Shown piece by piece: positions 12,656 to 19,391 of a DNA stretch of 50,634 nt. Source of the DNA: a virus. The stretch is from IMG/VR virus record IMGVR_UViG_3300046812_000279, positions 1 through 50,634 of that record; one strand, given 5' to 3'. The notes under the pieces were generated by a model. That model did no database searches. It was not told where the DNA came from and saw nothing but the letters and a program-made list of their open reading frames with translations. Each line of letters begins with the position of its first letter. Position 1 is the stretch's first letter. The position numbers and the translations under genes are program-made.

Positions 12656-12926
12656 GTTCAGGCTCCTTTGGTTTGCACTCGAAACAGTACATGCGGCCGC
12701 CGACGATGAATAGCGACTGCCGGCGGCGGCACTCCTGGCAGAGATACTTCGCCCGTTCGCGGGCGTCGTCGATCATGCCGGCGATGCGATCGGCGGCCCG
12801 ATCGGTGATTAGGTCGCCGTCGTTACAGGTCGCCTCGGCGGCCTGGTCGGGGTCAAGCCCCTGGTCGATGTATTCGCCCTCCCTGCGGTGGAATTCCTCA
12901 ATCCAAATCTCTTTGGGCGAACTCAC
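12618..12926 (-). CDS. Zinc-ribbon protein
   Basis: 102 residues. CQECRRRQSLFIVGGRMYCF followed by ECK forms a treble-clef-like CxxC...CxxC zinc ribbon (DksA/TraR-like in spacing). The N-terminal ~50 residues are acidic and helical. A TraR/DksA-type role at RNA polymerase is possible but the match is only in the Cys spacing. GTG 12926 overlaps the ATPase stop as GTGA, with GGAGG upstream in a 21-bp sequence that is repeated exactly at 12398-12418. Confidence 0.68.
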   Translation of the reverse strand: MSSPKEIWIEEFHRREGEYIDQGLDPDQAAEATCNDGDLITDRAADRIAGMIDDARERAKYLCQECRRRQSLFIVGGRMYCFECKPKEPERDPMQQMPTDVS

Positions 12927-13930
12927 GGCTTGGCCTCCGGGGCGGCGTACGCTTTCTTCTTGGCGTCCCATATCCAGCCCTGGCTGCCGGCGAACTCAGT
13001 CAACAGGAATCGAACCTGCTTCTTGACCGGATCGACCAGGTTGGCAATCTCCGGCATCTTCACGTTGAACTCTTCCAGGTTGCGGCCCTTCCCCTCGCCG
13101 TTCAGCCAGGTCTGCCACTCCTCGACCGTGCGGGCGGCCGCTGCGCTCGCCTCGGCGGTCTTGCCGATGATGCTCTTGGCGTCGGCCAGCTTCTCGGCGA
13201 GCCAGTTCGGGGCGTCGGCCAGCGGCGGCACTTTCAGCAGCGGCCATTGTGCGGCGTTCTTGCCGATGTGCTTTTGCGTCGGGTTGAAGTCGAGAAACCG
13301 GCGGCCCTCGGAGTCGGCCGACATGTAACCGACCAGGTCGGCAAACTTCATAATCTCGGTGTAACTGCCGCCCTGAATGTCGGGCCGCATGTACCTGTCG
13401 TCGCCGTCCTTTTGCTCTTTCTCATGAGCGATCAGGACCAGGTCGCGGCCTGCCAGTCTCATCTGGCCGGCCCAAAATGCGAACCGGCTTTTGAGCGCTC
13501 CGAAACCTTGCAGCGTCAGCCCTCCGGCGGCCGTGCCGAATTTCGAGTTGCTGGCGATGATCTGCGTACTGAGGAGATCCAGACAGCGGCCGATGGTATC
13601 GACGACGGTACAACGGCGCCCATTCCAGAGTTGCAAGCCTTGCAGGTATCGGTCTTGTTCGGCGGCGCCGGCGAATCGCTTCGACACGTCCTTGCCCAGC
13701 GCGAGGGCGGTTGCGTCGTCCTCGAACTCGACCAGGTCGGACCATTGACGAAACCGGGCGCTCGCTCGCCGGTTAAAGCTTCGGTGGAGTCCGTCGTCAA
13801 AGTCCAGGGTGTATGGCTTGTCGGCGGTCTGTGCGGTGGAACTCTTCCAAACGCCAGGAGGGCCGTAGATCAGGACTACCAGGCTCGAAACGTCGATCAG
13901 TTCGTTTTCGCCGATCAGGTTTGCAGGCAT
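12923..13930 (-). CDS. AAA_24/Sak4-like recombination ATPase
   Basis: 335 residues. VVLIYGPPGVWKSS (Walker A at 23-30), TLDFDDG (the 'fiDtE' position) and TVVDTIGR (D111, Walker B) give a RecA-fold NTPase of the AAA_24/Sak4 type, which anneals or loads on single-stranded phage DNA. The third Gly of the P-loop is Trp (GPPGVWKS). A helical C-terminal region follows. The PD-(D/E)XK nuclease is three genes downstream in the same coupled set. ATG 13930 has GGAG about 10 nt upstream. Confidence 0.8.
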   Translation of the reverse strand: MPANLIGENELIDVSSLVVLIYGPPGVWKSSTAQTADKPYTLDFDDGLHRSFNRRASARFRQWSDLVEFEDDATALALGKDVSKRFAGAAEQDRYLQGLQLWNGRRCTVVDTIGRCLDLLSTQIIASNSKFGTAAGGLTLQGFGALKSRFAFWAGQMRLAGRDLVLIAHEKEQKDGDDRYMRPDIQGGSYTEIMKFADLVGYMSADSEGRRFLDFNPTQKHIGKNAAQWPLLKVPPLADAPNWLAEKLADAKSIIGKTAEASAAAARTVEEWQTWLNGEGKGRNLEEFNVKMPEIANLVDPVKKQVRFLLTEFAGSQGWIWDAKKKAYAAPEAKP

Positions 13931-14138
13931 TCGACAATTCTCCGGTTGTGAGGATGGAACCGTAACACCAGGGCCAGGGGGAGGAGTCGAACCTCGCAGG
14001 CCAGCATTCCGACCCGATGCACCGGGTATCTGGCTTCACGTCTTAACCGCCTTAGTCAATCCCCTGGCAGGTGGCCGGCGGCGTCGTTCAGTTGGAGAAG
14101 GATCAGGGCCAACTTCGCGCTCGCCGCTCAGCCGTCAA
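13931..14138. other. Intergenic gap holding the tRNA-like element
   Basis: This 208-bp gap between the ATPase gene and the next upstream gene contains the tRNA-like element and nothing else recognisable. I saw no clear promoter or terminator in it. Confidence 0.6.
13973..14068 (-). tRNA. tRNA-like element with a hairpin in place of the anticodon loop (may not be a functional tRNA)
   Basis: On the minus strand the ends pair perfectly as a 7-bp acceptor (GCCAGGG/CCCTGGC, extendable to 8). The T arm is 4 of 5 pairs round TTCGACT. A D-like region contains AAGGCGGTTAA. The central arm is a 5-bp stem GCCAG/CTGGC closing a 25-nt loop, and inside that loop sits a second hairpin ACCCG-GTGCAT-CGGGT, so no normal 7-nt anticodon loop exists. 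No CCA is encoded. Possible readings: tRNA with an intron-like insertion, a degenerate tRNA, or a tRNA mimic. Amino acid not assignable. Confidence 0.5.
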
Positions 14139-14528
14139 TCAGTAAGGGCTTCCAGGCTCGTCAATCCAGGGCGGTTCGTCGTCGCCCCGATCGCGGCCGC
14201 CTGCAATCTCGGCATCTTCGTGGACGGTGAGTATTAGAGTCAATCCGTCAAGCTCGCCCCGCCATTTGCTGACGGAGTCAACCCCGCTCGGCAGTTCCAA
14301 TAGGTCCTTATCGATCGTGGCGACGAATGCGTTAAAGTCCCCGCTGCCGGCGGTCAACCCCACACAGTTGGCCGCGTCCTCGGCGGTCAGTTCCAGCCTG
14401 ATTTCGCCGCTGATACTCTCGACGTAGTCATAGCTCGGCAGTGGACCGCTGCCGGCCGCGCTTGGATAGTCGCCTGGGTCCTCCCAGCGTTCCCACTCGG
14501 CCGCCAGGTTGTTGCTCAGTAACTTCAT
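14139..14528 (-). CDS. Hypothetical acidic protein
   Basis: 129 residues, acidic, with beta-strand-like stretches (GEIRLELTAEDAAN, GELDGLTLILTVHED) and a Gly/Asp/Pro-rich C-terminus. ATG 14528 overlaps the upstream stop (ATGA). Not recognised. Confidence 0.65.
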   Translation of the reverse strand: MKLLSNNLAAEWERWEDPGDYPSAAGSGPLPSYDYVESISGEIRLELTAEDAANCVGLTAGSGDFNAFVATIDKDLLELPSGVDSVSKWRGELDGLTLILTVHEDAEIAGGRDRGDDEPPWIDEPGSPY

Positions 14529-18763: not shown

Positions 18764-19194
18764 TAGTCCGCCTCAATGGGTTCATCGGTTTCGTACGCTT
18801 CCTTGATGTCCGAACGGTAGCCCCTCATCTTCTGAGCGCGGCATTTGTCGCAGCATTTGCACAGGTAGATACCGTGCCCGTCGTATTCGTCCTCGGCCCA
18901 TTCGCCGGACCCGCACGGGCAGTAATAGCGGCCGCGCGAGTAAGCGCACGAATCGCAGGCCGGGAATTCGGCCGGGTCCTTGACGCCTAAATCCGCAAGC
19001 CAGGTGCGGCCCTTTTCCAGGTCCTCGGCCGTGCATTCCTGCCGGCAGTGTTTACAGGTCGCCATCGTTTCAGCCCCTCGGGTTAGGCCCGTTCGGCCGT
19101 AGTGGCGTCGCGGGCAGATAATGAGCGCTCCCCGTTCGACTAGGCCGGCCTGGCAAACGGGGCAGCGTTCGATTTCGAACAGGTCGCCAGTCAT
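18763..19194 (-). CDS. Multi-CxxC zinc protein
   Basis: 143 residues with at least five Cys pairs: CPVC, CKHC, CDSC, CPCG and CKCC-DKC. This would bind two or three zinc ions. ATG 19194 is chosen because it overlaps the upstream stop (ATGA). A second possible start, ATG 19065 (MATCKHCRQEC), has GAGGGG upstream and may give a shorter form. The first 40 residues form their own small Cys pair module, so the gene may be a fusion of two zinc proteins. Function unknown. Confidence 0.68.
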   Translation of the reverse strand: MTGDLFEIERCPVCQAGLVERGALIICPRRHYGRTGLTRGAETMATCKHCRQECTAEDLEKGRTWLADLGVKDPAEFPACDSCAYSRGRYYCPCGSGEWAEDEYDGHGIYLCKCCDKCRAQKMRGYRSDIKEAYETDEPIEAD

Positions 19195-19391
19195 GGGCGG
19201 ACCCGCCTGGGTTGTATCTTCGCATTGTGGAACCGTTCGCATTTTGCCAGGGCGGCGGCCGCCTCTTGCTCGGTTGTGAATTGCTTGGCATTCGCCAGGC
19301 CCCTGACGAATTGCCCGTATGCGTCCAGGTAGCTCGGTTGCAGTGTCGGCCCCGTGCCGACGACAAGGTAAACGGTGTAGGGCGGTTTCAT
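19191..19391 (-). CDS. Small hypothetical protein
   Basis: 66 residues: [17 protein letters not shown], then a helix ([19 protein letters not shown]) and a basic end. ATG 19391 overlaps the stop of the clamp-loader-like gene (ATGA). Not recognised. Confidence 0.68.

Follow-up and report, generated by a model that had tools for sequence, protein, structure and literature searches.

Background

The allo-tRNAs, which emerged when metagenomes were searched for tRNA-Sec (Mukai et al. 2017, as reviewed in PMC7609411), include 8/4 and 9/3 types that have a 12-bp branch and a long variable arm in common (PMC7609411); those of the 9/3 type show a long, Sec-like D stem together with the long variable arm (PMC7590224). 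A literature search by titles and abstracts returned nothing on anticodon-less tRNA-like RNAs in phages, a result that, at the level of titles and abstracts, is no proof of absence.

We studied a tRNA-like RNA encoded in a virus DNA with 62% G+C (record IMGVR_UViG_3300046812_000279; its whole stretch of 50,634 nt is referred to here as the window). The RNA resembles the 8/4 allo-tRNAs in its 12-bp 8/4 branch, in its detection by a tRNA-Sec model and in its metagenomic setting, and possibly, in one of two competing folds (fold B, see below), also in a long D stem and a long variable arm. Allo-tRNAs have defined anticodons and this RNA has no readable anticodon loop, and for this reason it was not filed among them. 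With bacterial tRNA-Sec (RF01852) it shares an 8-bp acceptor, a 6-bp D stem with GG in the loop, and length, but it differs in having a T stem of 4 bp rather than 5 bp (an 8/4 instead of an 8/5 branch) and in lacking a UCA anticodon loop. Like the tRNA-like domain of tmRNA, it keeps acceptor and T arm while the anticodon arm is absent; a tmRNA was nevertheless rejected, as there is no tmRNA 5' signature and no tag reading frame, and a D hairpin is present.

Results and discussion

Location and sequence of the RNA

The RNA occupies part of a 208-bp gap between an ORF of 129 aa and the start of the Sak4 ORF. It is encoded on the minus strand, which the original prediction, made from the sequence alone, had left unsaid. 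The features of the locus and of the acceptor side of the RNA are as follows.

12923..13930, minus strand: downstream gene, Sak4-like ssDNA-annealing ATPase / AAA_24, 335 aa (PHROG, Pfam)
13973..14068, minus strand: tRNA-like RNA gene, 96 nt (tRNA-Sec match and descriptor scan)
13973..13980, minus strand: 3' strand of the acceptor stem, CCCCTGGC, pairs with 14061-14068
13981..13995, minus strand: T arm GAGG-TTCGACT-CCTC, 4 bp, pair probability 0.88-0.91
14043..14059, minus strand: D-like hairpin TTGACT-AAGGC-GGTTAA, pair probability 0.58-0.79
14061..14068, minus strand: 5' strand of the acceptor stem, GCCAGGGG, pairs with 13973-13980
14139..14528, minus strand: upstream gene, 129-aa protein, no family found by protein scans

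The 5' part of the RNA reads GCCAGGGG A TTGACT AAGGC GGTTAA GACGTGAA GCCAG AT ACCCG GTGCAT CGGGT and the 3' part CGGAATG CTGGC CTGC GAGG TTCGACT CCTC CCCCTGGC. The neighbouring gene, predicted from the start to be a recombination ATPase, proved to be Sak4-like in comparisons with PHROG 124 (E = 6.9e-30) and Pfam AAA_24 (E = 3.5e-28). The Walker A motif of this ATPase (12923-13930, minus strand) reads GPPGVWKS, with W at the usual G position.

Acceptor branch and D-like hairpin

All eight pairs of the acceptor stem are Watson-Crick, with pairing probabilities of 0.98-1.0, and the stem was also recovered as an exact inverted repeat. The branch is divided 8/4 and not 7/5, because a fifth T pair would be C.C and the G at position 8 pairs with that C; the 12-bp 8/4 branch of the 8/4 allo-tRNAs is thus present here as 8 + 4 Watson-Crick pairs, and the canonical tRNA arrangement (7-bp acceptor, U8, 5-bp T stem) is not, given the 8/4 branch and the G at position 8. 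The D-like hairpin has 6 bp, two of them G-U, and carries GG within a 5-nt loop in the fashion of tRNA-Sec. The acceptor stem, the TTCGACT T arm and the D-like part had all been predicted, and each was found where it had been placed.

Detection of the RNA and chance expectation

Neither ARAGORN with default settings nor Rfam at the gathering score found a tRNA across the window, and RF00005 scored alone misses the RNA. The Rfam tRNA-Sec model matched it from end to end (model positions 1-91 of 91) with 24.2 bits and E = 3.9e-4 over the record, against a cut-off of 47 bits. As background for this model we took 47 phage records bearing Sak4 and 21 obtained through an arbitrary 15-mer, about 2.1 Mb in total. 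At E<=1e-3 these 68 phage records yielded five ordinary tRNAs, a 98-nt tRNA-like element (L046) and a tmRNA-like one (L027); every match had a tRNA-like basis.

A descriptor consisting of the T loop, a T stem of at least 4 bp and an acceptor of 7 or 8 bp also recovered the RNA. The combination of a perfect 8-bp acceptor with a GGTTCGA T arm occurred in 0 of 300 shuffles of the window, and 609 kb of shuffled sequence gave 0-2 looser descriptor matches per round, none of them perfect. On account of the tRNA-Sec match, the clean phage background and the descriptor match absent from the 300 shuffles, the RNA is very probably tRNA-derived or tRNA-mimicking, which upholds the tRNA-like character originally proposed. 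A chance inverted repeat resembling a tRNA would agree with the ordinary overall folding energy of the RNA (z = -0.74) and with the lack of relatives in our searches, but it is very unlikely in view of the shuffles, the E value of the tRNA-Sec match and the clean background, and on these grounds it was rejected.

Two competing folds of the middle region

Between the D-like hairpin and the T arm the RNA can be folded in two ways.

14000..14034, minus strand: fold A, GCCAG/CTGGC around a 25-nt loop, pair probability ~0.60, -37.4 kcal/mol
14012..14027, minus strand: fold A, inner hairpin ACCCG-GTGCAT-CGGGT, pair probability ~0.58
14017..14039, minus strand: fold B, distorted equivalent of the anticodon arm, GTG-AA-GCC-AGATACCC-GGT-G-CAT, in the minimum-energy fold
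13997..14016, minus strand: fold B, variable arm CGGGTCGG-AATG-CTGGCCTG, 8 bp, pair probability ~0.31

The middle arm originally proposed is fold A: GCCAG (14034-14030) and CTGGC (14004-14000) can indeed close exactly 25 nt with a hairpin inside, but this is merely one of two near-equal folds. Fold B has a class II shape and is the minimum-energy fold (-38.4 kcal/mol), and its variable arm competes with fold A. Since fold B is more stable by 1.0 kcal/mol, with probabilities of the key pairs of 0.60 for A and 0.31 for B, and since the searches gave no relative near enough for an analysis of covariation, the fold A middle is not established. A long variable arm and a long D stem are seen in the minimum-energy fold, the former at the pair probability listed above. 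The anticodon-arm equivalent of fold B has an 8-nt loop without U33, and enumeration of 5-bp stems with at least 4 pairs and loops of 6-9 nt gave no 7-nt loop with U33 anywhere in the middle. As no 5-bp stem carries such a loop, the RNA is not expected to decode in the normal way.

This bears on two possible explanations. A functional unusual tRNA, of the allo-tRNA kind and decoding after some folding or processing that was not predicted, would be in line with the many anticodons of allo-tRNAs and their activity in E. coli (PMC7609411), and with the further odd but plausible tRNAs of phage contig G001 (see below). The missing U33 loop, the tRNA-Sec score at about half of the cut-off and the 3' end, where no CCA is encoded and a discriminator C is followed by CTGG (CCTGG in all), make it improbable.

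The other is an intron-bearing tRNA with an insert of 16-18 nt in the anticodon loop, an option raised in the original prediction that now appears highly unlikely. With introns allowed, ARAGORN does call a tRNA-Ile(gat) at c[13971,14067] with intron i(41,5), and removal of 18 nt does leave a near-normal arm, as had been foreseen, namely GCCAG-CGGAATG-CTGGC with a 5-bp stem and a 7-nt loop; however, position 33 of that loop is G instead of U, and the 18-nt model does not agree with what ARAGORN calls. There is no bulge-helix-bulge but an internal loop of 2 + 7 nt around the 16-nt hairpin, the linker from the D hairpin to GCCAG has 8 nt and not 1, and U33 is not obtained in the loop by any simple excision. 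The insert falls far short of the size of a group I intron, and no Rfam intron is matched. We know of no bacterial enzyme that would remove such a 16-18-nt insert.

Search for relatives

Close relatives, sought through the Sak4, terminase and portal proteins, were limited to a near-identical 7-kb fragment (L002) that lacks the RNA, and the phage lineage appears isolated in the collections searched. Exact patterns of the 3' half had no match in the viral and genome collections, Blast against phages and plasmids gave nothing relevant, and a covariance model built on the single sequence gave weak matches, none convincing. A gapped pattern of D loop and T arm had six matches; two of them (L009 and L010) are phage genes of the tRNA-Ile(UAU) type in which the match lies inside the tRNA, and outside the searched pattern the likeness of the RNA to L009 was not significant (p = 0.065).

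An attP-like copy of the 3' half of a host tRNA is also to be considered, as tRNA 3' halves occur in some phage records (L190 looks like one). It has become a most improbable and largely refuted origin: the scanned proteins of the window include no integrase, none of the species genomes searched contains the exact 23-nt stretch of T arm and acceptor, and both acceptor strands are present.

For comparison, a Sak4 alignment search provided 80 loci from the viral and 54 from the genome collections; a second, narrower alignment added almost no loci. The nearest Sak4 relative (44-45% identity) is on phage contig G001 (locus L060), which shares the Sak4-exonuclease pair with the window phage and little beyond. 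Directly after the exonuclease gene of G001 lie two RNAs of interest.

L060 4588-4681: R1, 94 nt, one T.T mismatch in the acceptor, tRNA-Phe according to ARAGORN
L060 4757-4850: R2, 94 nt, perfect acceptor, no call by ARAGORN

Both resemble the window RNA in the TTCGACT T loop, the intact or nearly intact acceptor branch, the odd middle and the Sak4/exonuclease neighbourhood, but they are located after the exonuclease gene, whereas the window RNA precedes Sak4. R2, unlike R1, also shows a modest sequence similarity: its middle aligns with that of the window RNA as CTAAGGC..AAG..GAA..ACCCGG..CGG..GGAA (shuffle p = 0.011, and 0.04 when the second half is taken by itself). The similarity hints at common descent of the two but does not prove it. 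The outer GCCAG bases stand opposite gaps in the alignment, and two sequences cannot decide between folds A and B.

Elements with a broken middle in other phages

In 120 non-redundant Sak4 neighbourhoods (0.95 Mb) we found six tRNA-like elements that ARAGORN does not see, against about 0.2 in shuffles: L027, L046, R2 of L060, L124, L142 and L160. Away from Sak4 in the same phages (0.77 Mb) there were three (L221, L208 and L196); by eye, L221 is tRNA-like, L208 is the 3' half of a tRNA-Lys and L196 looks like chance. With six near and three far, the association of such elements with Sak4 is at most weak, and most of the pattern may reflect a low level of tRNA remains in phages.

The element of L124 (7430-7517, in an Arcticibacter prophage) has a Leu-type D arm, an acceptor and a T arm, all intact, and no readable anticodon arm. 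It can be drawn with an AACG/CGTT stem and a 23-nt loop with GGC/GCC inside, akin to fold A, a drawing that RNAfold does not favour. L027 (3460-3532, minus strand) is a 73-nt tRNA domain of the tmRNA type (GGGGGTGTAATGGTTTCGACA...) without a tag reading frame, near Sak4 on a viral contig.

Proposed origin: a phage tRNA that lost its usable anticodon arm

Directly observed are the acceptor branch, the D-like hairpin and the lack of an anticodon loop that could be read. We consider that the RNA may well come from a phage tRNA gene of class II, similar to the 8/4 allo-tRNAs, that lost its usable anticodon arm while the acceptor branch stayed intact, although our confidence in this origin is evenly balanced. 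Support comes from the tRNA-Sec match below cut-off, the 8/4 split, the lack of a U33 loop, the R2-like middle and the other tRNAs with broken middles. The anticodon arm would have been lost through decay or replacement, with preservation of an 8-bp acceptor stacked on a 4-bp T stem with its TTCGACT loop. The RNA would then be transcribed together with the early minus-strand operon, and RNase P or other enzymes that act on the acceptor branch might still recognize its acceptor/T branch; cleavage there would leave the upstream mRNA and the Sak4 message as separate pieces and set free a tRNA-like RNA that does not decode.

A maintained, non-decoding tRNA mimic, in which the acceptor/T branch is under selection and another hairpin has been put in place of the anticodon arm, is a possible but less probable explanation. 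Such an RNA might act as bait or substrate for a host factor that works on tRNA, be it RNase P, the CCA enzyme, EF-Tu, a synthetase or a defence that cuts tRNA; alongside it, the RNA could punctuate the early transcript as a site for RNase P. All 12 acceptor and T pairs are intact beside an aberrant middle, the same pattern recurs in L124, R2 (L060 4757-4850), L142 and L160, and L124 can be drawn with a comparable middle; however, the middle is not clearly conserved between the examples (shuffle p from 0.01 to 0.97), the L124 drawing is not favoured by RNAfold, and the enrichment near Sak4 is weak, one of the three far elements being tRNA-like by eye.

The original prediction had raised a pseudo-tRNA as well as a mimic, and either may be right. 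Between a plain relic and a maintained mimic, the relic is preferred and stands somewhat ahead. In a model of decay by point mutation with at least 4 hits in the 17 nt of the anticodon arm, the probability of an untouched 31-nt acceptor/T region is <=7e-4, so that a plain relic shaped by point mutations alone would not be expected to keep its 12-bp branch intact; a single insertion or replacement would account for it without selection.

If expressed, the RNA would be a natural tRNA-like RNA overlooked by standard tRNA finders, in which the acceptor-branch functions of tRNA are separated from decoding. Phage elements with the acceptor branch intact and the anticodon arm absent could be decoys, processing signals or mere tRNA remains. 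It is a speculative and rather unlikely extension that a whole class of tRNA-like RNAs unable to decode, with the acceptor/T branch kept and the anticodon arm replaced, lies hidden in phages with a Sak4 recombination module and serves to engage a tRNA-acting host factor or to punctuate the early transcript.

Other unusual phage tRNA genes

Three of the phage loci contain class II genes of the tRNA-Ile(UAU) type, L009 (352-445), L010 (1107-1201, minus strand) and L046 (1357-1454, the last by eye), whose variable-arm loop reads CAGATTA or CAGATAA. UAU is among the commonest anticodons of the 8/4 allo-tRNAs (PMC7609411).

Elsewhere in G001 (locus L103), at about 18806-18913, there is a tRNA-like sequence of about 108 nt that ARAGORN misses. 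By eye it has a 7-bp acceptor, a D arm, an anticodon arm GGCCG-CTTACAC-CGGCT (Val) preceded by extra nucleotides, and a long variable arm; an A bulges out of its T stem. It is followed at 18918-19296 by five adjacent tRNA-Leu genes with the anticodons GAG, TAA, TAG, CAG and CAA, that is, the full leucine set. A normal bacterial tRNA-Leu has a long variable arm; the five genes, all of 72-75 nt according to ARAGORN, have short variable loops. This leucine set could point to a host defence directed at tRNA-Leu or to altered charging.
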